Source of the DNA: Thioalkalivibrio sp. XN8
Lineage (GTDB): Bacteria; Pseudomonadota; Gammaproteobacteria; Steroidobacterales; XN24
Reading direction: 5' to 3'
Assembly (NCBI RefSeq): GCF_011058255.1
Contig: NZ_JAALFH010000052.1
Location: forward strand, 1-64,000
DNA: 64,000 nucleotides
This document shows positions 15,143-33,885 of the stretch, piece by piece. The notes under the pieces are model-generated. The model did no database searches, was not told where the DNA came from, and worked only from the letters and a program-made list of their open reading frames with translations. Positions within the stretch are counted from its first letter, which is position 1; the number at the start of each line of letters is the position of its first letter. The position numbers and the translations under genes are program-made.

Positions 15143-15171
15143 GGTTGCGGGCTGAAGGCTGCAGTCAGGGG
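15136..15171. terminator. Possible bidirectional terminator hairpin
   Basis: CCCCTGA (15136-15142) and TCAGGGG (15165-15171) are perfect inverted repeats flanking a 22-nt loop that itself can pair. Each arm contains the stop codon of one of the two convergent genes. There is no T-run, so termination is uncertain. Confidence 0.35.
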
Positions 15172-15800
15172 CCCGCCGCCGGCGGCGCCGCTACCGTGAG
15201 GGTGAGGGGCTGCCCGTCGCGGAACAGTTCCAGCGTGAAGGCATAGGTCGACGGCAGGGCCCGGAGGGCCGCCGCGAAAGCGGCCGGCTCGGCCGCGGGT
15301 GCGCCGTTGACGGCCTGGATCACGTCCGCCTCGCGCAGGCCGAAGCCCGCCAGGGGGCCGGTTTCGTCGAGCCTGTCCACCCTCCAGCCCCGCAGCTGCC
15401 CGTCCTCTACCAGCGGCGCGAAGTCTGCTGCCAGGGCGATCGCCTGCGGCCGCGCCGCCAGCGACTGCACCTTGCCGGCGGGCAGCTCGATGTTGGCCAT
15501 GGCGGAGTCCGGCGGCGCAGCCACCGGTTTCCCGGCGCCGGCCTCCAGCTCGAGCCGGAGCGGCCGGCCGCCACAGTCGAGGTCCGCCGCCGCACCGTCG
15601 ACCTGCAGCAGGCGGCAGCCGCCGGCCTCGTCGCCGGCGCGCAGCCAGCGCTGTCCGCCGGGGAATTCCACCAGCGCAGCTGCGTCCCCGGCCGCGACCA
15701 GCGTCGCCGCCAGCCGCGCCGGCCCGTCCGCGAGTGCGGGCGCGGCGGCGCCCAGCGCCGCGGCGCAGGCCAGTGATCTCCCGCCGCGGGTCCAGTTCAT
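15165..15800 (-). CDS. Secreted PDZ-domain protein, last gene of the 17-gene operon
   Basis: A 211-aa exported protein with an N-terminal signal sequence (ending APALADG) and a C-terminal PDZ-like domain from about residue 130 (VDRLDETGPLAGFGLREADV, then INGAP-like turn AVNGAPAAEP). The layout resembles GspC/PulC-type periplasmic proteins, which use the PDZ to hold an envelope partner. It lies 10 nt downstream of the TonB/AgmX-like gene, so it probably acts with the same trans-envelope machine. No other type II secretion gene is near, so a secretion role is not supported. Confidence 0.75.
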   Translation of the reverse strand: MNWTRGGRSLACAAALGAAAPALADGPARLAATLVAAGDAAALVEFPGGQRWLRAGDEAGGCRLLQVDGAAADLDCGGRPLRLELEAGAGKPVAAPPDSAMANIELPAGKVQSLAARPQAIALAADFAPLVEDGQLRGWRVDRLDETGPLAGFGLREADVIQAVNGAPAAEPAAFAAALRALPSTYAFTLELFRDGQPLTLTVAAPPAAGP

Positions 15801-15810
15801 CCGTCGCGCC

Positions 15811-16755
15811 TCAGGCCGGGAAGAACTCGATCGGCTTGGTCGTCGTCACGGTGGCGACGTCCTTGTCCTCGAAGCGGAACATCTTCACCCGCGCCACCAG
15901 CCGGCGCTCGAACTCGGGGTCGGTCAGCTCCGAGGAGACCACCTTGCAGTCGGTGACCTCGCCGCTGGGCGCGATGGTCAGCTCCAGCACGAGCCGGCCG
16001 CGCAGCGTCGGATCGCTCCGCAGGGCGCGGTTGTACAGGGCATAGATGGCCGCCTTGTTCTTGTCGAAGACCAGCTCGATTTCCTCTCGGCTGCGCGCGT
16101 TGAGGCCGTCGCCGCCGGTGCCGGCCGCGCTGCCGCCGCCGCCACCGCCGCCGCCGCCGACCGGCGAGGCGACCTGGGTCACGGCGCGCCCGCCGAGGCC
16201 GGTGCCGCCGGTGTTGCGGGACATGCCGGCGGTGTTGATGCCGCCGCTGGCACGGCCGCCGCGGGCGGTGACGACGTTGCGCTCGTTGAACTGCGACTCG
16301 CCGGCGCCGGCCGCCAGGCCATCCGCCGTGGTGGCGGCAGCGACCGCCTCATGGGTGCGCAGGTCGGCCAGGGTATCCGCGAACGCCATGACGCCGGTCG
16401 ACGCGGCGCGCTCGCGTGCGCTCGGCTGCGGCGGCTCGGCGGGTTTCGGCTGCGCGGTCTGGACCGGGTCCGGCTCCGGCGCGGCCGCCTCTTCGACTAC
16501 CGGTTCGGGCTCGGGCTCCTCCGCTACCACCGGCGGCGGGGGAGGCGGCGTGCGCTCGATCATCAGCCGGGCGTAGCGTTCCGGCACCTCGGGGGGTTCG
16601 GACGAGTCCGGTTCCGGCAGCGGCAGCCAGGGCATGAGCAGGCTGAGCAGCAGCGCGGCCAGGGCAGTCCGGCCGAGAATGCGCCGGAAGCGCTGCTCGA
16701 CCTGGGGGTCCCGGGTCCACGGCAAGTCGAACCCGCGTATGGCCAGGGTTGTCAT
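15811..16755 (-). CDS. AgmX/GltG-like TonB-type protein
   Basis: A 314-aa inner-membrane protein with an energy-coupling layout: short cytosolic start, one membrane helix near residues 28-44 (ALAALLLSLLMPW), a Pro/Glu-rich spacer (TPPPPPPVVAEEPEPEPVV), a Gly-rich linker, and a C-terminal TonB/AgmX-like domain (from about 225) with GRLVLELTIAPSGEV. The ATG at 16755 has GAGGAGG upstream. Lying after an ExbB and two ExbD genes, it is the likely arm that carries motor force across the periplasm, as GltG/GltJ are thought to do with AglRQS in Myxococcus. A TonB receptor role is less likely because no receptor gene is close. Confidence 0.85.
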   Translation of the reverse strand: MTTLAIRGFDLPWTRDPQVEQRFRRILGRTALAALLLSLLMPWLPLPEPDSSEPPEVPERYARLMIERTPPPPPPVVAEEPEPEPVVEEAAAPEPDPVQTAQPKPAEPPQPSARERAASTGVMAFADTLADLRTHEAVAAATTADGLAAGAGESQFNERNVVTARGGRASGGINTAGMSRNTGGTGLGGRAVTQVASPVGGGGGGGGGSAAGTGGDGLNARSREEIELVFDKNKAAIYALYNRALRSDPTLRGRLVLELTIAPSGEVTDCKVVSSELTDPEFERRLVARVKMFRFEDKDVATVTTTKPIEFFPA

Positions 16756-16765
16756 GCGGGCCTCC

Positions 16766-17260
16766 TCATGCGGTTTCGGCATCCCGCTGCACCACGGCGA
16801 GCGAGACGCGTCCATAGTCGGCGCGGGTACAGGTCACCATCACCTTGCGCAGCAGGCGGTAAGGCAGCTCGCGGTCGCCGAGGATCGTCACCTCGGGCGG
16901 CAGGCCCTCGTCCGCCCGCAGGCGCCGGGCGCTGAGCTGTTCGAGCGCGGCGGCCAGGCCGGGGATGAGGTCGTCGTCGGCGGCCAGGACATCCGCCGTC
17001 ATCGCGACCACTTCGCCCTGCACCAGGATGGACTCGGGCCCCACCGTGACCACCACGGTCTCGCGGGGCGGCTGCTGCGCCATCGACTCCGGCATCTGGA
17101 TCGACTTCGGCGTGGTGAGCTGCTGCACGTCGGAGGAGTTGACGAGCAGGAAGAACACCAGGATGGTGAAGATGTCCATCAGGGACACGAGGCTCAGGGG
17201 CGCCCCGCGCCGGCGCTTGTGGTGCATTTCCATGCGGCGCGCGCGTCGTGACGAGTTCAT
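16766..17260 (-). CDS. ExbD/TolR-type motor subunit with conserved Asp
   Basis: A 164-aa biopolymer-transport subunit: basic N-terminus, one membrane helix near 22-42 (LSLVSLMDIFTILVFFLLV) and a periplasmic domain. Asp29 in SLMDIF is in the position of the proton-carrying Asp of ExbD/TolR, so this copy can energise the motor. The start overlaps the stop of the previous ExbD by 4 nt. Together with the ExbB-like and the second ExbD gene it matches the one-TolQ plus two-TolR arrangement of Agl motors. The periplasmic part contains a potential peptidoglycan or partner-binding region. Confidence 0.9.
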   Translation of the reverse strand: MNSSRRARRMEMHHKRRRGAPLSLVSLMDIFTILVFFLLVNSSDVQQLTTPKSIQMPESMAQQPPRETVVVTVGPESILVQGEVVAMTADVLAADDDLIPGLAAALEQLSARRLRADEGLPPEVTILGDRELPYRLLRKVMVTCTRADYGRVSLAVVQRDAETA

Positions 17261-17757
17261 CGCTTGCCTCCCTTCGCTGCCGGGGCGTCGCCGATCGAGA
17301 TGTCGGGGAACAGTTCGGCTGTTCCTTCCTCGACGCGCGCCACGCGCAACGTATCCATGACGTCGACCAGGCGCTGGTACTCGATTTCCGGCTCCAGCAG
17401 GATGGTGGCGTCGCGCGTCTCCGGGTGCCGCAGCTTCACCTGCGCCAGGAAGTCGGAGACCGCGGCATAGTCGAAGCTGCCCGCTTCATCGGCCGCGAAG
17501 CGCTGCAGCAGCCCGGTACGCCGGTCGCCGATCTCGAGCGCGTCCGCGCGGACCACCACCTCGAGGTTCAGGCCCTGCTCGGCGGCTTCGGTCGTCTCGG
17601 CCGAGGGCCCCGGCAGCGTCAGCTCGTGCACGGCTAGGCGCGAGAACACAGCGGTGATCAGCAGGAACGGCACCAGCACCACCATCAGGTTCATGAAGGC
17701 GGTGATGTCGAGCTCGCCCGGCTCGTTGACCCGCCGGCGGCGCTTCAGGAGTCTCAT
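17257..17757 (-). CDS. ExbD/TolR-type subunit lacking the proton-carrying Asp
   Basis: A 166-aa ExbD/TolR homologue with a single N-terminal membrane helix (about 19-40, ITAFMNLMVVLVPFLLI) and a periplasmic domain. At the position of the essential Asp of ExbD (FID in E. coli) it has Asn23 (AAC codon). It may thus be a structural partner of the Asp-containing ExbD that overlaps it by 4 nt. The gene begins 1 nt after the stop of the ExbB-like gene. Similar proteins exist in TPR/AgmX clusters; whether the Asn is common in them cannot be judged here. Confidence 0.88.
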   Translation of the reverse strand: MRLLKRRRRVNEPGELDITAFMNLMVVLVPFLLITAVFSRLAVHELTLPGPSAETTEAAEQGLNLEVVVRADALEIGDRRTGLLQRFAADEAGSFDYAAVSDFLAQVKLRHPETRDATILLEPEIEYQRLVDVMDTLRVARVEEGTAELFPDISIGDAPAAKGGKR

Positions 17758-17758
17758 C

Positions 17759-18421
17759 TCAGCCTCCCGTCGCCCCGGTCTGGCGGGACTGCGCGGGGTC
17801 AGTGACCGCGTTCAGGAACTTCACGGCGGCCATCTCGAGGCTGTCGACGATCTCGGTGGTCTTGCTCTGCAGCACGGTATGCGCCAGCAGCAGGGGAATG
17901 GCCACCATGAGCCCGAAGGCCGTAGTGTTCATGGCCACGGAGATACTCGCCGACAGCATGTCGGCCTTCTCCGCCGGGTTCGCCGCGGCGACGGCCGTGA
18001 AGGCCCTGATCAGGCCGATGATGGTGCCGAGCAGGCCGAGCAGCGTCGCGATGTTGGCGAAGGTCGCCAGGTAATGCGTGCGCTTCTCGATCCGCGGCAG
18101 CGTCTCGAGCAGGCTCTCTTCCATCGCCTTCTCGATGTCGTCCCGGCGCCGGGCAGTGCCGAGCCGCGACAGGCCGTAGGCCAGGATGTTGCCGATCGCC
18201 ACCTTGGAGCGGCCGGCCAGGTTCATGGCCTCGGCGTACTTGCCCGACTGCACCATCGGCATCAGCTGCTGCCACAGCTTGCGGTTGCTGACGCCCGCGG
18301 CCGACAGGTAGACCCAGCGCTCGATGGCGATGGCTGCGCCGACCACCAGCACGATGACGATGGGGTACATGAAGACCCCGCCCTCCTGAAAGAAACCGAC
18401 GATTGCGGTATAGATTTCCAT
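17759..18421 (-). CDS. MotA/TolQ/ExbB proton-channel family protein
   Basis: A 220-aa inner-membrane motor protein with three hydrophobic helices (about 17-40, 118-142 and 162-186), including LLGLLGTIIGLIRAF and the polar TM3 region AMNTTAFGLMVAIPLLLAH, both typical of TolQ/ExbB proton channels. It should form the channel ring around the two ExbD proteins encoded directly downstream. In the Myxococcus gliding motor this place is taken by AglR. It lies 3 nt after a small secreted protein gene. Confidence 0.94.
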   Translation of the reverse strand: MEIYTAIVGFFQEGGVFMYPIVIVLVVGAAIAIERWVYLSAAGVSNRKLWQQLMPMVQSGKYAEAMNLAGRSKVAIGNILAYGLSRLGTARRRDDIEKAMEESLLETLPRIEKRTHYLATFANIATLLGLLGTIIGLIRAFTAVAAANPAEKADMLSASISVAMNTTAFGLMVAIPLLLAHTVLQSKTTEIVDSLEMAAVKFLNAVTDPAQSRQTGATGG

Positions 18422-18424
18422 TGC

Positions 18425-18772
18425 TTACTCCTCCACGGTTGATGTCGTCCGGCGTTCGCCGGAAGGTCCAGGAACTGAAAACTCTCCGGCCGCCTCGAGG
18501 GCGGCCCATTGCTCGGCCTCGCGCCGCATCACCAGCCGGTCGGCCGGCGCCAGCGCTTCGTCCAGCAGGCTCTGCACGGGCCGGCCGGGCAGTTCGCCCG
18601 CCGGCGCCTTCTTCCACGGCACGATCGCCATGACGCGCGGCAGCTCGCGGTTGCCGGTCACCTTGGCGGTGTCCAGCTCGAGCTTGGTCTCCTCCTCGGC
18701 CACCGCCGGCAGCGCCAGCAGCAGGACGAGCGGCAGGACCAGGAGCGGCGGAGTCCGGCGCACGGCGTTCAT
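18425..18772 (-). CDS. Small secreted protein in motor operon
   Basis: A 115-aa protein with a signal peptide (residues 1-25, ending LLALPAVAEE). No known domain recognised. The mature part is charged, with a conserved-looking block NRELPRVMAIVPWKKAP, and ends in a flexible Ser/Thr/Glu tail. The ATG at 18772 overlaps the stop of the upstream TPR lipoprotein by 4 nt, and the stop is 3 nt before the ExbB-like gene. Small periplasmic proteins in this position occur in related TPR-ExbBD clusters; an adaptor or assembly role is likely, but unproven. Confidence 0.75.
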   Translation of the reverse strand: MNAVRRTPPLLVLPLVLLLALPAVAEEETKLELDTAKVTGNRELPRVMAIVPWKKAPAGELPGRPVQSLLDEALAPADRLVMRREAEQWAALEAAGEFSVPGPSGERRTTSTVEE

Positions 18773-19371
18773 CGGTTGGCTACCCTCGAGTCGGTGCGCA
18801 GGCGCAGCTCGGCCACCCAGCGGGCGACCTGCTCGTCGGCCTCGGCGCCGCCGACCAGCGCGAGATAGCGCTCGTAGCACTCCAGCGCCTCGGCCGGGCG
18901 GCCCAGGTAGAGATCGAGCAGCACGCCGCGGTTGCGCCAGGCCAGCGCGTAGTCCGGGTCGAGCTCGAGCGCGGCGCGGTAGGCGTCGTCGGCCTCGCTG
19001 AAGCGGCCCTGCCGGCGCAGCACGATGCCGAGTTCGGCGTGCGCGACGGCGTGGGCCGGGTCCGCTGCCAGTGCATGCCGGAACGCGGCCTCGGCCTCGG
19101 CGTCGCGTCCCGCCGCCGCATGCACGATGCCCATGTTGACCCAGGGCCCGGGCAGGGCCGGGTATTCGGCGGCCAGTTCGTCCAGCAGTTCCAGCGCATT
19201 GTCCTGGGGCCCCTGCGCCATGGCGGCGACCGCCTGGTCGAAGCGCTGGTCGTCGGGCCGCGGGGCCCCGTCCGGTCCGCCGGGCACGGCGGCACAGCCG
19301 GCCAGCAGCAGCAGGCCGGTGCAGGTGCCGAGCAGGCCGGCGCGCGATCTAGCGAAGCAGTTCAACAACAC
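18769..19371 (-). CDS. TPR lipoprotein
   Basis: A 200-aa predicted outer-membrane lipoprotein: signal peptide with lipobox LLAGC at Cys26, then three to four TPR units (about 45-175; AHAVAHAELGIVLRRQGR and DYALAWRNRGVLLDLYLGR). TPR lipoproteins of this size are the GltE/AglT-type part of the Agl-Glt envelope complex in Myxococcus, which helps attach the inner motor to outer components. It overlaps the end of the large TPR gene by 23 nt and the next gene by 4 nt, implying strictly coupled expression. Confidence 0.85.
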   Translation of the reverse strand: MLLNCFARSRAGLLGTCTGLLLLAGCAAVPGGPDGAPRPDDQRFDQAVAAMAQGPQDNALELLDELAAEYPALPGPWVNMGIVHAAAGRDAEAEAAFRHALAADPAHAVAHAELGIVLRRQGRFSEADDAYRAALELDPDYALAWRNRGVLLDLYLGRPAEALECYERYLALVGGAEADEQVARWVAELRLRTDSRVANR

Positions 19372-22138
19372 TTTCTCCGGTCTCCTGGCGGTTCCAGCGC
19401 GCGGGCACCATCTCGGCGAGCACTTCGAAGCTCGCGATCACCCACTGGTCGTACAGCCCGTCGCGCGCGCGCGCCGCGTTCGCTTCGTGGATGGCGATGG
19501 CGTCCTCTTCGAAGGGGAAGGCCTGCTCCTCGAGCAGCATCTCGTACTGGTCCAGCGTCTCGGGGTCGAGCCCCGCGGGCCGGGTCGAGCCCATCAGGGC
19601 CTTGGCCATGTCGCGGTAGAGCTCGCCCATCCGGAACGCGGACTCGGTGGTGACCTCGGCCACGCCATAGGCTGCGGCGGCGCCGAGCGCATCCAGCGCC
19701 GCGCGCATGCGCTTGGCCTTTTCCGGCACGCTGCGTTCCAGCGGCGGGGCCAGCGTCGTGGCCGCGAAGCGCTCCACGACAGGCATCGCCAGCTCCAGCG
19801 AGGCGGCGGCGGCCAGCGTCCGGCTGCGGGCTGTGGCCTCGGCGCCGGCTTGTTCATGCGTGGCGATGATCGCTTCCAGCCAGCGGCGCCGCTCCGGGCC
19901 GTCGTTGCGCTGGCCGGCCAGCCCGGCCAGGCGGTGGCGCGCTTCCAGGGCGGCGTCGGCGGGCACCGGGAAGCGGTCCAGGTAGTCGCGCAGGGCCTGC
20001 TCGGCCCGGGCGGTATCGCCGCTTTCCTCATACAGGGCGGCGGCCTGCCACAGCGCGGCACGGCGGACGTCCTCCGACTCGCCCGGCAGCGCCGACACTG
20101 CGGCCAGCGCGGGCGCGGCCCGGCTGGCGTCGCCCAGTTCGACCAGCGCGGCCGCCAGGCTGACCTGGGCTTCGGCGGCCAGGGCGTGCCCCGGCCAGGT
20201 AGCCAGGAAAGCCTCGTAGGCCCCGGCTGCGCGGGACCAGGCGCCGGCGTTGAAGAGCAGGGCGGCCGCGTCGTGCTGGCCGGTGGCCGCCACCGGGCTG
20301 TCGGGCACGGCGGCCGCGATGCGCTCGAAGTGGCCCACCGCGAGGTCGAGCTCGCCGGCTTCGGCCGCCGCCTGGCCCTGGCGGTAGATGCTGGCGGCGA
20401 TGCGCTCGGCGACACTGGCGGCGAGCGTTGCCCCCGGCTCGGCCATCGCCGTCGCCGCCTGCCAGGCGAGGTAATCCTGTTCCGCCGCGGCATAGTCGGC
20501 GAGGTCGAAGGCGGCATGCGCGCTGACCAGGCGGGCAGCAGCCTGGGGCCCCGGCGGCGCGTCCTCGCGCTGGAGCACGCGGGCAGCCGCCGCGCGCGCC
20601 GCCTCCAGGCGGCCGAGCTGCATCAGCCGCTCGGCGGCCTCGAGCTCGACTTCCGGCGCCCGCGGGTCGGCCGGAAAGGCATCCGAGAACAGCAACGCCG
20701 CTTCCACCACCGCCAGCTCGGCGCTTGCCGCGTCCTCGGCCTGGCCGGCCTGCTCGGCCAGGTCGCGCCGCGTGACGACGGCGGCGTAGCCCGCCTCGGC
20801 GGCCTGCGGGTGCGGGTCGTAGGCGTAGGCGGCGGCGTGGTAGGCCGCGGCCGCCTCGGGCAGCGCGCCGTCGCCGTAATACAGCTCGGCCAGCAGGAAA
20901 TGCCGCTCGGCGGCTTCCGGCGCGGCCGGGAATTCCTGCAGCCAGCGGCGGTACCAGCCGGCGGCCGTCGCCGCGGTGCCGGTGCCGGCCTGGAAGGCGG
21001 CGTGATGGTGCGCGGCCAGCGTGTCCAGCGAGTCTTTCAGGCGCTCCCGGATCGCTTCGTGGGCCGCGGGATCACGGCCCTGCCACCAGTCGCCCTGCAG
21101 CGAGAAGCGCTCGGCGAAGGCCGCCATTGCGGCCAGCGCCTCGGTGGCGAAGCCGCCCTCCTCGAGGGCGTCGATCGCGCGGGCCTGCAGCACCGGCGCC
21201 CGCGCGTCGAGCGGGGCGCGCCGGGCCCAGGCGCCGAAAGCCGCCGCGGCGTCGGTCCAGCGTTCCTGCTCGAGGTACAGCTCGCCCAGGCGCGTGTAGC
21301 TGAGCCAGGCCCAGTCGGGGTCGCCGGCCGGGCGCGCATCCAGCCAGGCGTCGACACTGGCAGCGCCGTCGAGGGCGGAGAAACCGATCGCCATGGCGCG
21401 GAAGCTGTCGTCCACCAGCTCGCGCCCGGCCCGGTCGAGCGCCTCCAGCGGCGTGGTGCCCAGGCGCCCGTCGATGACCTGGCCGAAGTAGACGAAACTC
21501 TGCTCGTGCAGGGACTGCTTGAACAGCGTCCAGCCGAGCTTGTAGCGCGCCTGCTCGGAGAACGGCCCGTCGCGCTCGAGTTCCAGCGTCGCCTGGTAGG
21601 CGTCCTCGGCGGCCATCCAGTCGCGCGCCATGAAGCGTGCCTCGCCGATGCGGAACCAGGCTTCGGGCGCCAGGGGAGAGCCCGGCTGGGCGGCGACCAG
21701 TTCCTGCAGCACCGTCTCGGCCGCGGCATCCCGGCCGGCCATGGCTTCGGCTCGTGCCAGCTGGTAGCGCCAGTGGTCCTGCCAGGCCGGGCCGGCGTCC
21801 CGCGACCCGGGGTCCGCCAGCAGGGCACGGTACAGGCGCACCGCCTCCTCGAGGTAGCCCAGCGGCGAGACGCCTTCCATCAGGGCGATCTCGGCGGCCT
21901 CGAGGCGCAGGTCGGCCAGCCGCCGCATGGCGGTGACGCGCATCGATGGGTCTGCGGCGGCGGGCGAGGCGAGGAACGCGGCGTAGGCCTCGGCGGCCGC
22001 CACCGGGTCAGCCGGTGGCGGCGGCGCGCCTGCCTCGGTCAGCAGCGGTCCTGCATCGCCCACCGTCGCAGCATCTGGATCGGGGCCGCTCCCGAAGGGC
22101 CACAGCGCGGCCATGACGATGGCAGCTGCCAGGCTCAT
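19349..22138 (-). CDS. Large periplasmic TPR protein
   Basis: A 929-aa protein with a hydrophobic N-terminus (MSLAAAIVMAALWPF, probably a signal) and TPR-like Ala-rich helical repeats through most of its length, for example FRIGEARFMARDWMAAEDAY and VAATGQHDAAALLFNAGAW. The ATG at 22138 overlaps the preceding stop (ATGA); the open frame upstream to 22840 is a shadow of the previous gene. Long TPR proteins (GltD/AgnA, GltI/AgmK) are part of Agl-Glt machines and span the periplasm. There is no catalytic domain. It probably acts as a scaffold linking the motor to the outer membrane. Confidence 0.85.
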   Translation of the reverse strand: MSLAAAIVMAALWPFGSGPDPDAATVGDAGPLLTEAGAPPPPADPVAAAEAYAAFLASPAAADPSMRVTAMRRLADLRLEAAEIALMEGVSPLGYLEEAVRLYRALLADPGSRDAGPAWQDHWRYQLARAEAMAGRDAAAETVLQELVAAQPGSPLAPEAWFRIGEARFMARDWMAAEDAYQATLELERDGPFSEQARYKLGWTLFKQSLHEQSFVYFGQVIDGRLGTTPLEALDRAGRELVDDSFRAMAIGFSALDGAASVDAWLDARPAGDPDWAWLSYTRLGELYLEQERWTDAAAAFGAWARRAPLDARAPVLQARAIDALEEGGFATEALAAMAAFAERFSLQGDWWQGRDPAAHEAIRERLKDSLDTLAAHHHAAFQAGTGTAATAAGWYRRWLQEFPAAPEAAERHFLLAELYYGDGALPEAAAAYHAAAYAYDPHPQAAEAGYAAVVTRRDLAEQAGQAEDAASAELAVVEAALLFSDAFPADPRAPEVELEAAERLMQLGRLEAARAAAARVLQREDAPPGPQAAARLVSAHAAFDLADYAAAEQDYLAWQAATAMAEPGATLAASVAERIAASIYRQGQAAAEAGELDLAVGHFERIAAAVPDSPVAATGQHDAAALLFNAGAWSRAAGAYEAFLATWPGHALAAEAQVSLAAALVELGDASRAAPALAAVSALPGESEDVRRAALWQAAALYEESGDTARAEQALRDYLDRFPVPADAALEARHRLAGLAGQRNDGPERRRWLEAIIATHEQAGAEATARSRTLAAAASLELAMPVVERFAATTLAPPLERSVPEKAKRMRAALDALGAAAAYGVAEVTTESAFRMGELYRDMAKALMGSTRPAGLDPETLDQYEMLLEEQAFPFEEDAIAIHEANAARARDGLYDQWVIASFEVLAEMVPARWNRQETGESVVELLR

Positions 22139-24006: not shown

Positions 24007-24016
24007 GGCCTCGTCC

Positions 24017-24550
24017 TTACTCCCAGGTCCTGACCTGGAAAGTCGGCTGCTGCAGCGCCTCGCTGTCGCGCAGGACCAGCTCCAGCTGCTGCGGGCCCAG
24101 GCCTTTCTCGAACTGGAGGCTGGCGGCGCGGCGGTATTCCCGGCCCTGCGGGCCGCGCCCGACCAGCACCGCGACCAGTTCGTGCGGGCCGGTCTTCAGG
24201 TTGCCGAGGTAGAGCCGGTGCACGCCGCCGCGGTGCAGGGCGTCCACCTCGCGCTCGGTATAGAGGTACTTGGCCACCCGCTCGTCGTTGATCGCGACTT
24301 CCACCGCGTCCAGCGCGAAGTACTTGCCGACGTCCATCGACAGGTACACGGCGACCTGCGTGCTGGCCGGGAACAGCAGCTCTTCCTCGAGCAGGAACAG
24401 GTCCCGGTTGAGCGCCACCAGTTCCTGCTTCAGCGCCCGGAGCTCGGCGTCCGGCGCGGGCGCCTGGGCGGCCGCGGGCGCGGCCAGCGTCGCCAGCAGC
24501 GCCAGCGCTGCAACGAGCGCGCGGCGCGCGGGCGGCTTACCAGCGGCCAC
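24017..24550 (-). CDS. Small exported protein of the TPR cluster
   Basis: About 177 aa, with a signal peptide (LVAALALLATLAAPAAAQ) followed by a short helix (LRALKQELVALNRDLFLLEE) and a beta-rich domain (TQVAVYLSMDVGKYFALDAV; HRLYLGNLKTGPHELVAVLVG). I chose GTG 24550, which gives an immediate signal peptide and overlaps the DUF3570 stop by 14 nt; a GTG at 24595 is the alternative. Such proteins occur next to large TPR genes and are often mislabelled as AraC-type regulators. It has no DNA-binding domain; a periplasmic structural role is inferred. Confidence 0.72.
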   Translation of the reverse strand: MAAGKPPARRALVAALALLATLAAPAAAQAPAPDAELRALKQELVALNRDLFLLEEELLFPASTQVAVYLSMDVGKYFALDAVEVAINDERVAKYLYTEREVDALHRGGVHRLYLGNLKTGPHELVAVLVGRGPQGREYRRAASLQFEKGLGPQQLELVLRDSEALQQPTFQVRTWE

Positions 24551-25655
24551 CGAACCAGACCTGGAAAACGTGGCTGTCGAATCCATAGAGTTCACCGTTG
24601 CGGATGTCCGTGAAGTCGTCGTAGTCGAAGCGGATGAAGTCGTAGCCCAGGCTGATCTCGTTGCGCTGCAGCGGGCCGAGGCTGCGGCCGAGGTCCCAGG
24701 TGACGCGGGCGCCCAGGGTGTGGCTCTGGAAGGTGGAGAGCTCCTTGTCGCGCGCCATGAACTCGAATACGGCGTCGAAGTCGTCGGCGTAGAACGAGGC
24801 CGGGTCCTGGGTGTAGTAGCGGTAGGAGACCTCTGCCGTCAGTCCCGGCCGGAGGCGTCGCACGTAGGCGGTCTCGAGCGTGTGGGACTGCACCTGCCAG
24901 GTATCCCGGTACCAGCGGTAGCCCAGCTCGACCGCGTTGTTGTCGCGCACCATGCCGATCCCGCGCAGCGCCACCGCGTGGCTGTTGCGGGCGCGCGGGT
25001 AGCGCTCCGGGACCTGGGCCCCGAGGATGCGCGCCGAGCGGTAGGGATTGTTCAGGAAGCCGGTCTCGAGGATCGCCTCGTAGTCCAGGCTGGCGAGGAT
25101 CTTGGGCGTCACGACCTGCGACCAGCCCAGCTGGTAGCTGTTGCGCGAAATGCTGTCCTCGAAGTCGGTGTCGACCCGGGACACGGTGTCGTCGCCGCGC
25201 GCGTAGCCGAGCGAAAGCGTGCTCATGCCGCCGAAGAAGGTCTGCGCCACGGCGACGGAGACGGTGTCGGACTGGTAATCGCTCTCGTCGCTGCCGACGT
25301 AGCCGAGCGTCATCAGCGAGTCGCCCTGGAGCCAGTCGACGCTGGCGGCGAGTTCCTTGCGGGTCTCGGTGTAGGGGCTGGCGCTGGTGACGACGTCGAT
25401 GGAGGCGGAGCTGATGCTGTCGACGTAGTAGCTGGCGGAGGCGGAGAAGTCGGTGCCGAAGCCTTTGCGGACCCGCAGCGCCGGGCCGGTGACCTGCACG
25501 CCGCCGCCGTCGTAGCTGTGGTACATCACTTCGGCGAGTTCTTCCGGCAGCGTGGCGGCGACCGCGGCCACGCAGGTGCAGCACAGCGCCACGGCGAGCT
25601 GCCCGAGCAGCCCGGCATAGCGCGTCTTGCCGGTCCTGGCCTCAGTTGCAGCCAC
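24537..25655 (-). CDS. DUF3570 outer-membrane beta-barrel protein
   Basis: About 372 aa, secreted, with a predominantly beta-barrel sequence ending in the typical outer-membrane terminus (FQVWFGGRW). The signature SYYVDSISSASIDVVTSASPY near the start marks DUF3570. The GTG at 25655 with GGAGGGG upstream is preferred: it overlaps the DUF4266 stop by 14 nt and leads straight into the signal sequence (LGQLAVALCCTCVAAVAA). DUF3570 genes recur beside TlpA-type thioredoxins and DUF4266 lipoproteins, exactly as here, in proposed surface redox modules; the barrel may hold a redox lipoprotein. No ApbE flavin transferase is adjacent. Confidence 0.88.
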   Translation of the reverse strand: MAATEARTGKTRYAGLLGQLAVALCCTCVAAVAATLPEELAEVMYHSYDGGGVQVTGPALRVRKGFGTDFSASASYYVDSISSASIDVVTSASPYTETRKELAASVDWLQGDSLMTLGYVGSDESDYQSDTVSVAVAQTFFGGMSTLSLGYARGDDTVSRVDTDFEDSISRNSYQLGWSQVVTPKILASLDYEAILETGFLNNPYRSARILGAQVPERYPRARNSHAVALRGIGMVRDNNAVELGYRWYRDTWQVQSHTLETAYVRRLRPGLTAEVSYRYYTQDPASFYADDFDAVFEFMARDKELSTFQSHTLGARVTWDLGRSLGPLQRNEISLGYDFIRFDYDDFTDIRNGELYGFDSHVFQVWFGGRW

Positions 25656-25869
25656 AGCCCCCTCCGTCGCCGTCGCCGGCGCCGCGCGAGCCTTCGCGGA
25701 CGTCGAACACGTGCTGGCGATGCTTGTCCATGAACGCATTGCGCGAGAACAGCATCATCGGGTCGGCCAGGGTCTCGCGCTCGTAAGGCGCGACCCAGGG
25801 CTGCGGCGCGGCACAGCCGCCGAGAGCGGCCAGCGCGAGCACGAGCAGGGTGCGGCGGCGCATGGTCAT
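25642..25869 (-). CDS. DUF4266 small lipoprotein with GGGCGCN tail
   Basis: A 75-aa lipoprotein with a lipobox near Cys19 (ALAALGGC) and conserved text YERETLADPMML and DKHRQHVFDVREGSRGA, diagnostic for DUF4266. It ends in GGGCGCN, two cysteines held in a Gly stretch, a presumptive metal- or cofactor-binding tail. The ATG at 25869 overlaps the TlpA stop by 4 nt. In many bacteria DUF4266 sits between a thioredoxin and DUF3570, and it may be matured by the thioredoxin before acting with the barrel at the surface. It is too short for most automatic gene calls. Confidence 0.85.
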   Translation of the reverse strand: MTMRRRTLLVLALAALGGCAAPQPWVAPYERETLADPMMLFSRNAFMDKHRQHVFDVREGSRGAGDGDGGGCGCN

Positions 25870-26402
25870 TCCTCCCGCAGCAGCGCGCGGACTTCGTCGA
25901 GGTAGCGCTGCTCCATGCCGGGCCGGTAACCGTAATGCACGCTGCGGACCTGGCCCTCGCGGTCGACCATCACCGTCATCGGCATCGCCTGCACGTCGTA
26001 CAGCCGGCTGACGCTCTGCTCGTCGTCGAACAGCAGCGGGAAGGTCACGCCGAGCTCGTCCGCCAGCCGCTGTGCCTGGTCGCTGTTCTCGTCGATGTTC
26101 ACGCCGAGCAGCGCAAAGCCCGCGGCCTCGTAGCGGGCGAAGATCTCGTCCAGCTTCGGCATCTCCTGGCGGCAGGGGCCGCACCAGGTGGCCCAGAAAT
26201 TGATCATCACCACCTGGCCGCGGTATTCGGACAGGCGCAGGTTCGGCCCGGCCGAGCTGCGCAGCGCGAAGTCCGGCGCCTCGACGCCGGCGCGCACCGT
26301 GGTCGAGTTCGCCAGCGCGGCGCCCGGCAGGGCGAGCGCCAGCAAGGCGCCGATCAGAAGTAGACGCCGAGGCCCAGGTTGATTTCGAAGTTCTGTTTCC
26401 AC
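25866..26402 (-). CDS. TlpA-family thiol-disulfide oxidoreductase
   Basis: A 178-aa exported thioredoxin-like protein: signal or anchor helix at about 12-31, then a TlpA/ResA fold with WCGPC at 73-77 and the cis-Pro loop QAMPMTVMVDREG. It would keep cysteines of cytochrome or lipoprotein partners reduced in the periplasm. Candidates are the DUF4266 tail (two Cys), the CxxCH sites of the cytochrome and the Cys-rich 173-aa lipoprotein encoded upstream. GTG 26402 has a good site (CGGAGAGAA) inside the end of the preceding barrel gene, a 49-nt overlap. Confidence 0.9.
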   Translation of the reverse strand: METELRNQPGPRRLLLIGALLALALPGAALANSTTVRAGVEAPDFALRSSAGPNLRLSEYRGQVVMINFWATWCGPCRQEMPKLDEIFARYEAAGFALLGVNIDENSDQAQRLADELGVTFPLLFDDEQSVSRLYDVQAMPMTVMVDREGQVRSVHYGYRPGMEQRYLDEVRALLREE

Positions 26403-27013
26403 TCGTTCTCTCCGAGGAGGTCCGATTCAAAGATGTTGTTGCGCGCCTCGAGCCGCAGGCTGAGCCAGTCGGTGGGGAGGACCTTGAGGCCGAAGCCGAA
26501 GGCGTAGCTGATGCTGTCGCGGTCGGCGAATTCCACCTGGCCGACGCCGAAGCTGAGGTACACGCCGCTGGTGCGGGCCCACTGCGTGCCGAGGAACACC
26601 TCCCCGGGCAGCACCATGAAACCGACCGAGAGGTCGTAGGCCGTGAGGTCCTCCTCTTCCGCTTCGAAGATCGGCGCGCCGAGGCGGCGGAAGCTGCTGT
26701 CGCTGATCGAGGAGGAGGCGTAACGGGCCTCGAGGTACAGGTCCTCGGTGGCGTGGTAGGCGAAGCGGAGGCCGTAGACCGGTTCGGTGCCGAAATCCTC
26801 GACCGAGAGCATGCCGCCGAAGACGCCGACCTCCCAGTCCTCGGTATCCACCTCGGGGCGGACGATGTCGCGCCGCTCCAGCATCGGGTCGATCACGGCG
26901 GGGACCGGGCCCTCGACGGGCTCGTCGGGCGGCGCGCCGGGGCGCAGCACGCTGCAGCCGCTCGCCGCCACGGCGGCGGCCAGGATCAACAGGGGGCGCA
27001 GTGCAGGGTTCAT
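26354..27013 (-). CDS. Outer-membrane beta-barrel lipoprotein
   Basis: A 219-aa protein with lipobox AASGC at Cys20, a Pro/Glu-rich linker, then a small eight-strand-like barrel (GVFGGMLSVEDFGTEPVYGL through NFEINLGLGVYF, ending in aromatic Phe). This matches the outer membrane beta-barrel domain proteins found in myxobacteria and elsewhere. It is paired with the SH3-barrel protein just upstream (9-nt gap), which ends with a similar strand pattern. In the Agl-Glt comparison these barrels would take the part of the GltA/GltB outer-membrane proteins. Confidence 0.82.
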   Translation of the reverse strand: MNPALRPLLILAAAVAASGCSVLRPGAPPDEPVEGPVPAVIDPMLERRDIVRPEVDTEDWEVGVFGGMLSVEDFGTEPVYGLRFAYHATEDLYLEARYASSSISDSSFRRLGAPIFEAEEEDLTAYDLSVGFMVLPGEVFLGTQWARTSGVYLSFGVGQVEFADRDSISYAFGFGLKVLPTDWLSLRLEARNNIFESDLLGENEWKQNFEINLGLGVYF

Positions 27014-27022
27014 GTCTGGTCC

Positions 27023-27802
27023 TCAGAAGAACACCGAGAAGCCCAGCGAGATCTCGGTGAAGTCGTCGTTGTTGTTCACGTCGCGGGTGAAAACGAAGTG
27101 CCGCAGGTCGCCCCGCACCAGGAAACGCCGGGTCAGCCAGCCGCGCACCCCGAGGCCGGCATTGCCGGCCCATTCACTGACTTCTTCGGCATCCACCAGC
27201 GTGCCTTTAGGCTCGTTGGTCAGGCGCCCGGCGCCGATGCTGAAAAAAGGCGCGATCCGGTTGTCGGGGAAGGGCAGCACCTGGAGGTTGGCGTGGAAGG
27301 CCCGGGTGCTGGAAAAACTGCCCGAGGCCTGCAGCACCTGGGCCTCGCCGACGAAGTGGCGGCCGAGCCGGTAGCCGGCGCGGAAGCTGAACAGCGGGTC
27401 GCCTTCGAAGTCGCCCAGCGCGAAGCCGGCCTCGAAGCGTCGTTCCTGCCAGTCGGCCAGGCCCGGGCGGCCGAACCGCACGGCCGCGCCGCCGGGCCCC
27501 TCGGCCAGTTCCGCCACGGTGCGGTGCATCCAGCCCCGCGTGCCGTCCCTGGTCTCCACCATCAGCCAGTCGGTGCGCTGGCGCAGCAGCCGGAAGTCCT
27601 GGCCGCGTTCCACCACGTGGAACACCGGGTAGCCCCGGCCAGGGCCGGTGTGCAGCTCAGCGTAGGGCTGCGTGACGGTCAGCCACAGGGGCGCCTCGTC
27701 GGCCGCCGCGGCCGGGGCGAGCCACGGCAGCAGTAGCAGGGCCAGGGCCAGCGCCACCAGGCGCCGCCAGCCTCCGAGTGCTCCCTGCACGTCGTGGGCC
27801 AT
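27023..27802 (-). CDS. Bacterial SH3 plus outer-membrane barrel protein
   Basis: A 259-aa exported protein with signal peptide (LALALLLLPWLAPAAAADE), a bacterial SH3 domain at about 40-100 (AELHTGPGRGYPVFHVVERG, DWLMVETRDGTRGWMH), usually peptidoglycan-binding, and a C-terminal barrel domain ending in GFSVFF. The combination can fix an outer-membrane barrel to the cell wall. It lies 9 nt before the barrel lipoprotein, and the two may form one complex. It starts 3 nt after the stop of the small cytochrome-like lipoprotein. Confidence 0.84.
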   Translation of the reverse strand: MAHDVQGALGGWRRLVALALALLLLPWLAPAAAADEAPLWLTVTQPYAELHTGPGRGYPVFHVVERGQDFRLLRQRTDWLMVETRDGTRGWMHRTVAELAEGPGGAAVRFGRPGLADWQERRFEAGFALGDFEGDPLFSFRAGYRLGRHFVGEAQVLQASGSFSSTRAFHANLQVLPFPDNRIAPFFSIGAGRLTNEPKGTLVDAEEVSEWAGNAGLGVRGWLTRRFLVRGDLRHFVFTRDVNNNDDFTEISLGFSVFF

Positions 27803-27805
27803 GGC

Positions 27806-28327
27806 TCAGTACCCGCATTCCGGCAGGGCAGGTGGCGTGCAGAAGCCGCAGCTCGCGGCCTGTTCGTCCTCGACGCGCACCGAGATCCATTCACGGATGG
27901 CCTGGTAGCAGGCGTCGTCGACGCTGGGGAAGATGTCGCCGCCGGTGTGCGTGCCGGTAATGGAGAACACGCCCTGCAGCGGCTCCAGCAGCAGCTTGCT
28001 CTGGTCCGGGTTGTCGAGATTGGAGAAGGACCGCGCCGAAAAGAAGTTGGCCATCATCTCGACCGAGCCGGGCTCGGCGCCGGGAAAAATCTTGAAGGCC
28101 CCGCCCGAGCCGGCGCCGACGTCGTGACAGCCGCTCGAGGCGCAGGTGGTCTGCCCGGTGCGGCCGTTGATGACGGCGTCGAAGATCGGGTTGACGCATT
28201 CCGCATAGTCCTCGACGCACAGGGTGCCGCCGGTGGCGGAGACCGGGCTGTTCTCCACCTCGCCCCCGCATGCACCCAGGAGGATGCATGCGGAGGCGAT
28301 CAGTGGCTGGACGACGCGCTGGCGCAT
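27806..28327 (-). CDS. Cys-rich lipoprotein with a CX4CH haem-like motif
   Basis: A 173-aa lipoprotein (lipobox LLGAC, Cys20) following the three-haem lipoprotein by 8 nt. CASSGCH at 62-68 is a CX4CH motif, the less common c-type haem attachment known from Desulfovibrio tetraheme cytochrome c3. Further Cys residues (37, 44, 140, 160, 163, 171) may form disulfides or a metal site. The central region GSGGAFKIFPGAEPGSVEMM and the ending domain (DDACYQAIREWI) resemble cytochrome-like modules in the larger protein next door. It is probably an electron-transfer partner of that protein; haem binding is inferred. Confidence 0.72.
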   Translation of the reverse strand: MRQRVVQPLIASACILLGACGGEVENSPVSATGGTLCVEDYAECVNPIFDAVINGRTGQTTCASSGCHDVGAGSGGAFKIFPGAEPGSVEMMANFFSARSFSNLDNPDQSKLLLEPLQGVFSITGTHTGGDIFPSVDDACYQAIREWISVRVEDEQAASCGFCTPPALPECGY

Positions 28328-28335
28328 ATTGGGAC

Positions 28336-31218
28336 CTAGGTCTCGCAGCTGCCGGCGGCGATCCAGTCATGGATGGCCTGCCAGTCGGCGCTGCCGGCCT
28401 CGAGCACCGGCGTGCCGGAGCCCGGCACGGCCGGGTCGATGCCGATGCGCGGATGCGGCGGATCGTCCACCTCGGTGGAGCTCGGCCGCAGCAGCAGGTA
28501 GTTGGACTCCGGCTCGCAGACGTCCGAGACCATCGACACGGAAGCGTTGAAGTCGCCCTCGACATTGCCCGTCAGCACGTAGCGCGAGGTCTCGAAGCCG
28601 GCATTGACCGGCTCGTTCGGCGTGGACGGCGAGCCCGTGTTGCCGAAGGGCTGGTGACAGGACGCGCACTGCGACATCAGCACCGGGTGCACGGTCGCGG
28701 CGAACAGCTGCTCGGAGAGTCCCTGCAGGCCGCCGCGCACCTCGGACATGGCGCGGAAGCCGTCGCCGTTGGCGTCGTCGAAGGGGTCGTTGTAGTACTG
28801 CCCGCCGAGATCGATCCACTCCGCCACCAGGCGCAGCTCGCTGGCGTTCAGCAGGCCGCTGTGATCCACCGTCGGCGGCATGCTCATGTCGCGGCCCGAG
28901 CGCAGCGGCTGCTCGAACAGCTTCGCCATCAGCCCGGCGGTGCGGGAGCTGTCGCGGGAGCCGCCGGTGTTGACCAGCGGCGCGGTCCGCACGATCTCGA
29001 TGCCGCCGTCCGGCATGATGCGCAGCTGCGGCAGGCCGGTATCGGGATCGAGCACCGGGTCGCCGATCATCAGCTCCTCGTAGGACTTGAGACGGCCGGA
29101 GCCGGCCGTCGTGCCGCCCAGGTCGAGGCCGGCCGACAGCGGGTCGTTCGGGTCGTCGTTGAGATGGCAGCCGACGCAGGTGGCGTCGCCGCGGTCGGCC
29201 TCCCACAGCGGCTGGATGTGGTCGGGGTAGTTGATGATCCCGTCGACCGGCACCGGCACGCCCGGGGGCAGGTCGGCGTAGCTGATCAGCAGGGGCTCGT
29301 CGGCGGCGCGTCCGGCCTGGGCCGGATCGGTCCACACGTCCTCGTACACCAGGTCGAAGCTGAGCTCCAGCGCGGTCGGGTCGACGCGCGTGCGCGTCTC
29401 GGCCATGGACTCGCCCAGCTCCCCGGCCATGGCGGCATTGGGATGGAAGCCGGCGATCGGCGCCGAGTTCAGCGCGCTGCCCCGACGCGGGGAGTGGCAG
29501 CCGTTGCAGGTGCGGGTCTCGCCCGGGCGGACCTGCAGCCAGTTGGTATGGACCTGGATCGCGCGGCCGTGGGCGTCCAGCGCCACCACGCCCAGCGGGG
29601 TGTCGGCCGGCACCTTGATGCGGAAGGAGCCGTCGGGCTCGATCGGCGCGTAGCCCAGGATCTGCTGCATCTCGAGGTCGGTCTCGCCGATGGCTTCGCG
29701 GGACACGCCGGGCGGCGTCGGCACCGCCTCGGTCACCCGCAGGAAGCGGGCCGGCCGGTCGGCCGCCGTGCTGAGCGTGGGATCCTTCAGCGTCATCAGG
29801 TCGGCCACCTGGCTGCGCGTGTCGTCCGGCGGCGGCGCCGTCATGGGGATGGTCTCGCCGGCCACCAGCATCCGCGCGCCCATCAGCCCGAGGCCGTCGG
29901 TGTCGTAGACGCTCTTGACGTTCAGGATGCCCATGCCCTCGGCTGCGAGCTCCTCGTCCAGCGGCTTGTCGGTGATGGTGTTGGGGACCGGGCGGGACTG
30001 GACCGCGACCGGGTCGGTGTAGGCCCAGCCTTCCGGCGGCAGCGCGATGGGCAGCAGGTTCTTCGCGTCCAGGTCGAACATGTAGACGCCGTAGAGCGGC
30101 GGGCCCTCGACTTCTTCGTCCTGGCCGGTGACGGGGTTGAACTCCATCTCCGGGCGCAGCGGCGACCAGCTCACCAGGGCGCGGTTGGTGCCGTCCCACA
30201 GCGGATAAGGGGTGGTGTAGCGGCCGAACTCGGAGACCCCGCGGCCGAAATCGATGGGGAACAGCGTGAGCTGCTGCTGGGCCACGGCGTCGGCGGGCGC
30301 GCCGGGCACCGCCTCGCCGGCCTCGGCGAAGTTGCGGATGTCGACCGCCACCAGGGCGCCGCCCTCGCGGGTGCCGGACAGCGGCATCAGCGAGCTCATC
30401 ACGCGGCCGTCGGGCATCTCGCGCGGGTGCAGGAAGCTGTTGCCCGGGCTGAAAGCGCCGTACTGCACGAAGATATTGGTGCCGTCGGGGTTGGTGATGA
30501 ACAGGGGGAAGTGGTTGCGGTTGCCGACGTGGTCCCACCGCGCGAACAGGATTTCGCCGGTGTTGAGCACGGTCGGGTTGCGGTCGTGGCTCTGGTTGAA
30601 GGAGATCTGCCGGATCTCGCTGCCGTCCCCGCCCATCACGTGCAGGGCCAGCACCCGCTCGCGCTCGTACTCGTCGCGGTAGGCGTAGGGCTCGATGTTG
30701 CGCTCCGCCAGCAGCTGGCGGGTCTTTTCCTGCCGGTTGGAGCTGAACACGATGCGGCCGTCCGGCAGGTAGGCCGGGTCCACGTCGTCGCCCGCATTGG
30801 CCATGGCGTCGTCGGCGACGATGCGCCGGAGCACGCGGCTGGGCAGGTCGAGCTCGTAGACGTTCCAGGTCGGGTCGTTCGGGCCCCGCATGGAGAACAG
30901 GACCCGCTCACCGTCGTAAGACACCTCCGGATCGGAGACGTCGCCTTCGCCCAGCGTGTAGTCGGCGGTGAGATTGACCAGCGGCGCGGTCGGCGACGAC
31001 AGGTCCTTCATCATGAGGTCGCCGCCGGGCCGGAAAATGGCCCCGTCGGTCGGGTTGCCGACCGCGTCGACCGCCCGCATGGCGAAGACAATGGGAAAGT
31101 CGCCTTCGACCACGACGGCCGAATCGCTCGATTCTTCGCCGCCGCCGCAGCCGGCGACCGCTATCAGGAATCCCAGTAACGCCGGGTAACCCAGCTTGCG
31201 TTTGTTTGCCCACACCAT
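28336..31218 (-). CDS. Propeller lipoprotein with three c-type haem sites (HzsA-like)
   Basis: A 960-aa exported lipoprotein (lipobox VAGC, Cys24), predicted at the outer membrane. Residues about 90-460 contain TolB/PD40-type beta-propeller repeats (YLPDGRIVFSSNRQ; EILFARWDHVGNRN). CxxCH haem motifs lie at 571-575 (CNGCH), 681-685 (CVGCH) and 851-855 (CASCH). Its arrangement recalls HzsA-related multihaem proteins. The ATG at 31218 has GGGAGG upstream; the frame upstream to 31347 includes the riboswitch leader. It is first of the 17-gene run and directly controlled by the c-di-GMP aptamer. The most likely role is surface electron transfer, by analogy; no substrate is apparent. Confidence 0.88.
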   Translation of the reverse strand: MVWANKRKLGYPALLGFLIAVAGCGGGEESSDSAVVVEGDFPIVFAMRAVDAVGNPTDGAIFRPGGDLMMKDLSSPTAPLVNLTADYTLGEGDVSDPEVSYDGERVLFSMRGPNDPTWNVYELDLPSRVLRRIVADDAMANAGDDVDPAYLPDGRIVFSSNRQEKTRQLLAERNIEPYAYRDEYERERVLALHVMGGDGSEIRQISFNQSHDRNPTVLNTGEILFARWDHVGNRNHFPLFITNPDGTNIFVQYGAFSPGNSFLHPREMPDGRVMSSLMPLSGTREGGALVAVDIRNFAEAGEAVPGAPADAVAQQQLTLFPIDFGRGVSEFGRYTTPYPLWDGTNRALVSWSPLRPEMEFNPVTGQDEEVEGPPLYGVYMFDLDAKNLLPIALPPEGWAYTDPVAVQSRPVPNTITDKPLDEELAAEGMGILNVKSVYDTDGLGLMGARMLVAGETIPMTAPPPDDTRSQVADLMTLKDPTLSTAADRPARFLRVTEAVPTPPGVSREAIGETDLEMQQILGYAPIEPDGSFRIKVPADTPLGVVALDAHGRAIQVHTNWLQVRPGETRTCNGCHSPRRGSALNSAPIAGFHPNAAMAGELGESMAETRTRVDPTALELSFDLVYEDVWTDPAQAGRAADEPLLISYADLPPGVPVPVDGIINYPDHIQPLWEADRGDATCVGCHLNDDPNDPLSAGLDLGGTTAGSGRLKSYEELMIGDPVLDPDTGLPQLRIMPDGGIEIVRTAPLVNTGGSRDSSRTAGLMAKLFEQPLRSGRDMSMPPTVDHSGLLNASELRLVAEWIDLGGQYYNDPFDDANGDGFRAMSEVRGGLQGLSEQLFAATVHPVLMSQCASCHQPFGNTGSPSTPNEPVNAGFETSRYVLTGNVEGDFNASVSMVSDVCEPESNYLLLRPSSTEVDDPPHPRIGIDPAVPGSGTPVLEAGSADWQAIHDWIAAGSCET

Positions 31219-32306: not shown

Positions 32307-32334
32307 GCTTGAACCCCCCGAAGAAGGACTGAAT

Positions 32335-32373: not shown

Positions 32374-32393
32374 TAAGTAAAATAAATTTAACT

Positions 32394-33809: not shown

Positions 33810-33885
33810 GTGCTCCGCTCCCCCGCGACTGCTGCGATCGGGGCCCGGACTCGCCGGGCCCGGCCAACCCTGCGAGAATACCGAA

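Follow-up and report, generated by a model that had tools for sequence, protein, structure and literature searches.

A riboswitch-headed operon in Thioalkalivibrio sp. XN8 pairs a predicted Agl-Glt-like envelope motor with a predicted surface redox module

We analysed a window of 64,000 nucleotides from the gammaproteobacterium Thioalkalivibrio sp. XN8 (contig NZ_JAALFH010000052.1, positions 1 to 64,000), and here describe a run of 17 minus-strand genes, g01 to g17, that extends from 31218 down to 15165 as judged by open reading frames (ORFs), G+C content at third codon positions (GC3) and translations. A preliminary description of this DNA had reported 17 consecutive genes that overlap or are separated by at most 10 nt, and this was borne out by the ORF coordinates, from which the gaps were derived by subtraction. 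The run is preceded by a predicted cyclic di-GMP (c-di-GMP) riboswitch and comprises a redox half (module A, g01-g07) and a motor half (module B, g08-g17). Profile and motif searches also agreed with the gene identities proposed earlier, namely a propeller, a CX4CH lipoprotein, barrels, a TlpA/DUF4266/DUF3570 set, TPR proteins, ExbB, two ExbD, an AgmX arm and, by a sub-threshold match, a PDZ protein. The features are as follows, with lipobox and signal-peptide calls made by eye.

31339-31427, minus strand: c-di-GMP-I riboswitch aptamer (RF03167, 73 bits, cut-off 59), 120 nt before g01
28336-31218, minus strand: g01, hydrazine synthase (HZS) alpha-like beta-propeller lipoprotein with three CxxCH motifs (PF18582 74.1 bits; PD40; match to 5c2v_A, E 6.6e-9)
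27806-28327, minus strand: g02, small CX4CH cytochrome lipoprotein (motif by sequence)
27023-27802, minus strand: g03, SH3b domain and small outer-membrane barrel (PF08239 and PF13505, both slightly below cut-off)
26354-27013, minus strand: g04, lipoprotein with outer-membrane barrel, OMP_myx_plus family (TIGR04565 133.1 bits, cut-off 60)
25866-26402, minus strand: g05, TlpA/ResA-type thiol-disulfide oxidoreductase, start uncertain (PF00578 101.6 bits; NF002854 131.5 bits, cut-off 170)
25642-25872, minus strand: g06, DUF4266 lipoprotein with C-terminal CGCN (PF14086 69.8 bits)
24537-25739, minus strand: g07, DUF3570 protein with DSISSAS site, start uncertain (PF12094 117.6 bits)
24017-24595, minus strand: g08, motor-module marker, predicted coiled coil and beta sandwich, no family (no Pfam or NCBIfam match)
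22135-24006, minus strand: g09, exported TPR/coiled-coil protein, GltC-like in size and position (Pfam; Luciano et al., Table 1)
19349-22144, minus strand: g10, long TPR protein, GltD-like in size and content (Pfam; Luciano et al., Table 1)
18769-19371, minus strand: g11, TPR lipoprotein, GltE-like (GltE model 52.3 bits, cut-off 225; Tgl model 60.5 bits)
18425-18772, minus strand: g12, small exported protein conserved in the motor module (comparison of locus hidden Markov models, HMMs)
17759-18421, minus strand: g13, ExbB/TolQ/AglR-type stator (PF01618 101.7 bits)
17257-17757, minus strand: g14, first ExbD/TolR, Asn at the transmembrane Asp position (PF02472 49.1 bits)
16766-17260, minus strand: g15, second ExbD/TolR, transmembrane Asp kept (PF02472 55.4 bits)
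15811-16755, minus strand: g16, TonB-like arm with AgmX/PglI C-terminal domain, GltG/GltJ-like (NF033768 66.2 bits, cut-off 40)
15165-15800, minus strand: g17, GspC-like PDZ protein (NF041515 57.2 bits, cut-off 150)

The 3' end of the run lies 22 nt from a convergent gene at 14771-15142 (Lumazine_bd_2, 93.3 bits). Between positions 14000 and 32500, one promoter-like site was found compared to 0.6 expected from shuffled sequences, at position 32360 and hence outside the operon, and terminator-like sites were close to expectation (6 found, 5.3 expected). The RF03167 aptamer was the sole Rfam match at gathering score in the 64-kb window, and its leader showed no U-run terminator when judged by eye. 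By sequence, this riboswitch is of the c-di-GMP-I class and heads one operon, with the response to ligand being a prediction. Since gene order and orientation recur in relatives, chance adjacency of the 17 genes is excluded.

The two halves of the operon were found together far beyond the window. With score borders that were set after viewing the match lists (52 bits for PF18582, which marks the HZS-alpha-like cytochrome; for the motor marker g08, 185 bits in the class sample and about 165 bits among relatives; 700 bits for c2, described below), PF18582 reached ≥52 bits in 50 of 369 genomes of the window's class, and a g08 match was present in all 50, at ≥185 bits in 47 and more weakly in three (G113, G133 and G249). 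The two genes shared a contig at a distance of ≤12 kb in 36 of these genomes, and none of the seven class genomes with only weak PF18582 matches (<52 bits) had g08. In the reverse direction, 47 of the 52 class genomes with g08 at ≥185 bits carried the cytochrome; these g08 counts leave out six weak-marker genomes below 67 bits (G285, G169, G268, G118, G082 and G368), none of them HZS-listed, and when the six are counted, 30 class genomes have weak markers only, three of them with an HZS protein. Among 59 relatives, a g08 orthologue occurred in 35 and PF18582 in 33, with g08 present in every one of the 33 and within 12 kb of g01 in 15. The relatives with g08 only were G008, whose genome is 82% complete, and G016, where g03, g04, g05 and a DUF3570 gene still adjoin the motor (L033). 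G016 was also the one discordant genome in the six families of mixed HZS presence (28 genomes); the Fisher tests that we applied to these families and to the class sample ignore kinship.

A genome scan with g08 additionally identified seven named loci (in Steroidobacteraceae, Woeseiaceae, Marinobacter and four less closely named proteobacteria), six of which had g01 within the stretch examined, the stretch around L006 being cut short. A phylum sample of unspecified make-up (299 genomes) yielded the marker in 10, each of which belongs to the class of the window, and plasmid searches gave few, distant matches (4 and 5 records). Because HZS-positive genomes all carry the motor marker, within-family differences included, the view that the predicted redox and motor halves are partners rather than chance neighbours is well supported, and we consider it very probable that they form one functional system. 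The comparisons show that the two predicted modules are inherited together, often contiguous and in one direction. The statement in the preliminary description that these parts are not usually seen together was therefore wrong, given that 50 of 50 HZS class genomes carry the motor marker, 36 of them within 12 kb. It had also raised the prospect that synteny would reveal the halves as unrelated neighbours elsewhere; we found the opposite, with the order recurring and the halves paired in 33/33 relatives and 50/50 class genomes. Its central proposal, that an Agl-Glt-like motor and a redox set make up one riboswitch-headed unit, gains support from the shared layout, the co-occurrence and the RF03167 match.

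We scanned 86 stretches with HMMs derived from these loci and displayed the matches together with riboswitches, apbE and a third set of genes, module C, which revealed two layouts. In the compact type (10/33: the window, G002-G005, G015, G028, G040, G051 and G057) the order is riboswitch-g01-g02-g03 through to g16-g17 in one line, as far as contigs reach, G005 and G057 being cut inside and G040 lacking its head. In the classic type, module C is divergent from g01-g03-g04-g05-g06-g07, accompanied by apbE, sometimes a riboswitch, usually a second TlpA gene, and g08-g16, which are either contiguous or split off. Module C comprises three genes.

L004:3751-9142, L070:13052-18525 and others, divergent from g01: c1, one CxxCH and a DUF1585-like tail (sub-threshold match)
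Same module-C stretches, divergent from g01: c2, lipoprotein with two CxxCH and a LamG domain (71.9 bits)
Same module-C stretches, divergent from g01: c3, Tat-type signal (by eye), no family

Full-length c2 was present in 23 of the 33 HZS relatives, and relatives that were negative for HZS gave not even a partial match. Across the class, c2 matched in 52 genomes, reaching ≥700 bits in 39, of which 38 had the cytochrome. One single-contig genome, G091, has full-length c2 and no listed HZS-alpha protein or motor marker. Searches of PDB sequences with c3 and with the c2 profile gave no match. Module C is absent from the window's family, and among the loci examined g02 was present only where module C was missing: it was seen in nine of the ten relatives that lack full-length c2, the exception being G040, whose locus is truncated at a contig end. 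The third CxxCH of g01 is likewise confined to compact copies and not found in classic ones, while an HGR stretch after haem 1 (SHGR in all but L007) marks classic and not compact g01. Profile comparison related g02 to the third g01 haem domain (80.5% probability over 99 columns) and the latter to the c2 haem domain (93.4% over just 34 columns), and direct comparison of g02 with the c2 haem domains gave 21.8% and 14.7%. These patterns hint that the clade of the window may have packed the haem function of module C into g01 and g02.

In gene content, the predicted motor resembles the core formed by gltC, gltD, gltE, aglR, aglQ/S and gltG. The window cluster has one TolQ/ExbB and two adjacent TolR/ExbD genes (PF01618 and two PF02472 matches), followed by a TonB-like transducer with an AgmX/PglI C-terminus (g16); the TPR content, order and sizes of g09-g11 fit GltC, GltD and GltE loosely, with g11 scoring lower against the GltE model than against the Tgl model. 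A core of this kind (Group B: gltC, D, E, G, aglR, Q, S) was reported as clustered in Gammaproteobacteria and Geobacter with function unknown (Luciano et al. 2011, PMC3169522), and Wartel et al. (2013, PMC3858216) described it as a stand-alone machinery, perhaps a basal transporter; in the portions of both papers available to us, the role of the gammaproteobacterial stand-alone core was left open. Unlike the core as presented in the available part of the former paper, the motor described here is tied to a haem/flavin module, often to apbE and to a riboswitch, none of which is named there, and the word 'cytochrome' is absent from its main text. With regard to the Group A genes of the full Myxococcus gliding machine (gltF, H, I, J, K, A, B), no ORF between 12000 and 34500 comes near the 4132 residues of GltI, and g03 and g04 are like GltA and GltB solely in being small barrels.

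A further difference from the Agl-Glt core concerns the ExbD pair. Among 45 loci, a set that takes in paralogous motors, the transmembrane Asp of the first ExbD is replaced by Asn in 38 (it is kept in L001, L003, L004, L005, L028, L033 and L035), while the second keeps Asp in 45/45. Strong g17 matches (≥200 bits) came from loci of the compact type and, on the classic side, from L058 alone. Fold comparison of the g08 model returned common Ig/transthyretin-like sandwiches only, the best being the PepT2 extracellular domain (Z 9.0). Several relatives possess a paralogous motor without module A, which in five displayed loci (L020, L023, L025, L038 and L039) has a riboswitch ahead of it. In G001 (L020/L087, G001:C23), such a motor has riboswitches on both sides and no redox module in the stretch; behind it are genes for a DUF11-repeat protein of 2212 residues and an OmpA-repeat protein of 1701 residues whose tail is barrel-like. 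Because this riboswitch-headed paralogue precedes giant surface-type proteins instead of module A, the same kind of predicted motor appears with different surface partners. Studies of Marinobacter atlanticus on electrodes offer a lead, in that just one gene was lower across both lifestyles and all potentials in a rubredoxin mutant, which had no current phenotype; this was the TonB-like gene of an ExbB-ExbD-ExbD-TonB operon (PMC8233155, as far as that report was available). This operon is a candidate for the same motor; a pattern search for rubredoxin found none in our loci.

The redox half contains DUF3570, DUF4266 and TlpA-like genes together, as judged by Pfam and as in flavinylated DUF3570 systems. 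According to the accessible part of Meheust et al. (2021, PMC8238504), ApbE attaches flavin to a DUF3570 protein of Chlorobium at two [S/T]GA[S/T] sites, DUF4266 bears a CXC motif, and 316 ApbE-DUF3570-thioredoxin-DUF4266 clusters exist with DsbD not nearby. The present set is like those clusters in its DUF3570, CXC-bearing DUF4266, TlpA-like protein and frequent apbE, and differs from them in a divergent DUF3570 with one, often SSAS, site and in its extra haem proteins and motor. The CGCN tail of DUF4266 was found in 31 of 32 listed copies, a 33rd (L058) looking spurious. A DxxSxAS-type site is present in 32 of 33 module-A DUF3570 copies and the strict D..[ST]GA[ST] in nine, and a search for the flavin site in other proteins of the set found D..[ST]GA[ST] in just single copies of two other families. 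The apbE gene adjoins module A or B in 23 of the 35 motor genomes, including compact G015, G028, G051 and G057, which fits flavinylation of DUF3570. Many SSAS copies have a linked apbE, so that strict motif and linkage track each other loosely, and flavinylation of g07 is plausible. Each of the seven members of the window's family has one ApbE, which in the window's own genome (3.1 Mb, 67 contigs; G+C content of the window 70%) lies on another contig. Across the 17 genes only four haem motifs are encoded, three in g01 and one CX4CH in g02, and we rejected a long conducting wire for that reason; this speaks for the redox half being a surface oxidoreductase instead.

Riboswitches were found at the head of module A, B or C in 20 of 33 assessable genomes, these being the 35 motor genomes minus G040 and G047, in which the operon head was not on a contig. 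The 20 comprise compact heads (9/9), nine classic-type B heads (two of them weak, at 37 and 47.6 bits), positioned either between modules A and B or ahead of a B module that is split off, and two module C heads (L070 and L073). Either module can thus sit behind a predicted c-di-GMP-I riboswitch. The model R1 was built from 24 aligned copies belonging to the system itself, module C and the paralogous motor, so that its matches there are circular; the copies had first been found via Rfam. Bases equivalent to G20, A47 and C92 of Vc2, in what we take to be the correct numbering, are invariant in all 24 and kept in the window. A cGAMP (Geobacter-type) riboswitch was rejected, because the equivalent of position 20 is G, which under the rule that we assume separates the two types marks the c-di-GMP type. 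The system has in common with GEMM-I-controlled cytochrome operons of Geobacter that genes for surface haem proteins follow a riboswitch of the GEMM-I class, and differs in its c-di-GMP-type contact bases, and no motor is named in the available part of that report (PMC6456294). At three other riboswitch sites, the next genes encode by Pfam an Ig-domain lipoprotein, a giant DUF11 protein and a Calx-beta protein, surface-type products that fit a role in surface life.

Some riboswitches were observed in other settings. In L086 (G000:C27, near 85315-85646), tandem c-di-GMP-I riboswitches precede an Ig-domain lipoprotein, followed by a PEP-CTERM protein and another Ig-domain protein. G012 has at least 22 c-di-GMP-I-type riboswitches, but the search detected none at the copies of the system in this genome (L037 and L069). 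Upstream of the operon in the window, positions 31660-34392 contain a helix-turn-helix (HTH) gene and an ORF of 681 residues that matches no Pfam or NCBIfam family; profile searches found neither of the two in the other stretches covered.

Several observations weigh against reading the operon as one physically coupled machine. The modules lie apart in 14 of the 50 class genomes (on different contigs in 12 and distant in two) and in 18 of the 33 relatives (17 on different contigs, some of which reflect contig breaks, as in G005, G037 and G040, and one at 24 kb), so that physical contact between them is at most a prediction. Five strong-marker genomes (G150, G105, G395, G016 and G416) lack an HZS-alpha protein. 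The riboswitch search found no operon-head riboswitch in 13 of the 33 assessable genomes or in the seven named loci. With regard to flavin, there is no apbE match in the window and none beside the set in its family, and g07 has DSISSAS rather than SGAS, with zero strict [ST]GA[ST] sites. Finally, the predicted structure of g01 is poor (predicted local distance difference test score, pLDDT, 42.7).

Other explanations of the operon were weighed on the same evidence. The motor might carry adhesive complexes, such as the lectin-like module C, for attachment or surface movement, with the haem and flavin proteins merely maturing or cross-linking them. The LamG domain of c2, the c-di-GMP-type riboswitch, the giant surface-type proteins beside the paralogous motor, and the action of Agl-Glt and Agl-Nfs on surface polymers in Myxococcus (PMC3858216, as far as accessible) point in this direction; we nevertheless regard it as rather unlikely, given that the clade of the window has no lectin module yet keeps haem and flavin-type parts, and that the core alone was argued to be insufficient for gliding in the accessible part of PMC3169522. 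Reductive uptake, in which the haem/flavin set reduces Fe, Cu or Mn at the surface and the motor energises import via a barrel, would account for the TonB-like arm with ExbBD, for the TonB-dependent receptor between the modules in one relative (L034), and for the VIT1 ferrous transporter in 25 DUF3570 clusters (PMC8238504, available part). We judge it unlikely, since none of the 17 genes was assigned by Pfam to a TonB-dependent receptor or a metal transporter, only one receptor was met among those neighbours in relatives that were chosen for Pfam, and the g03 and g04 barrels are small. Moreover, to our knowledge ordinary Ton systems do without TPR/coiled-coil scaffold proteins.

It is also conceivable that both modules serve sessile life under c-di-GMP as co-regulated neighbours that act separately, as the distance between them in many genomes and the presence of the same riboswitch class before unrelated surface proteins would allow, but co-occurrence is nearly exact even where they are unlinked, and within families too, which is more than shared regulation demands and makes this quite improbable. 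A hydrazine synthase or other nitrogen enzyme was considered in view of the PF18582 and 5c2v_A matches of g01 and its propeller-type repeats, middle domain and c-type haem motifs. Unlike that enzyme, g01 is a lipoprotein in an outer-membrane-type operon, and no beta or gamma subunit is named among the 17 genes. In addition, the HZS-alpha equivalog model NF052339 gave 53 bits against a cut-off of 800, and in 38 aligned homologues no Tyr directly follows haem motif 1, where we presume the Tyr ligand of the catalytic haem to be. We rejected this candidate, as vanishingly unlikely, on the low score and the missing Tyr.

We therefore favour, as a probable though by no means secure reading, that the operon encodes one c-di-GMP-controlled, ion-driven envelope machine with a redox complex at its outer-membrane end. 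In such a machine, c-di-GMP would signal surface life and the riboswitch would control how far all 17 genes are expressed, an ExbB(5)-ExbD(2)-type stator would tap the ion gradient, and the AgmX/TonB arm together with the TPR/coiled-coil scaffold would relay force through the periplasm to the barrels in the outer membrane. These barrels may bear a redox relay from TlpA to the DUF4266 Cys pair, a DUF3570 barrel, possibly bearing flavin mononucleotide (FMN), the g01/g02 haems and an outside acceptor, an order that we infer from the chemistry and the cluster study of Meheust et al. By analogy with Agl working on Glt or Nfs, the motor would most likely move, present or turn over the redox complex, as a transporter of Agl-Glt type that has a surface oxidoreductase for its cargo; that it acts physically on this complex we think somewhat more credible than the reverse. 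Any stated physiological purpose is doubtful at this stage, the attachment, surface movement or electron-conducting contacts suggested in the preliminary description included. A bolder proposal, offered tentatively and with more doubt than belief, is a new kind of machine in which an ion-gradient motor mechanically drives (moves, rotates or gates) haem/flavin heads at the outer membrane under c-di-GMP, this being the long-missing job of the gammaproteobacterial core, and gliding in Myxococcus a later re-use.

In the literature searched, which left most subscription journals outside, we found no paper that joins a motor name (AglRQS or GltG) with DUF3570, DUF4266 or hydrazine synthase alpha. 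If the motor does act on the redox complex, an envelope motor would be serving a purpose without precedent in that literature. The near-exact pairing ties the question of what the core does to the study of flavinylation clusters, and both could be tested in a named genus, Marinobacter (L007). Taken together, the set occurs in many marine and soil bacteria, and its consistent pairing makes the two halves look like one unstudied machine.

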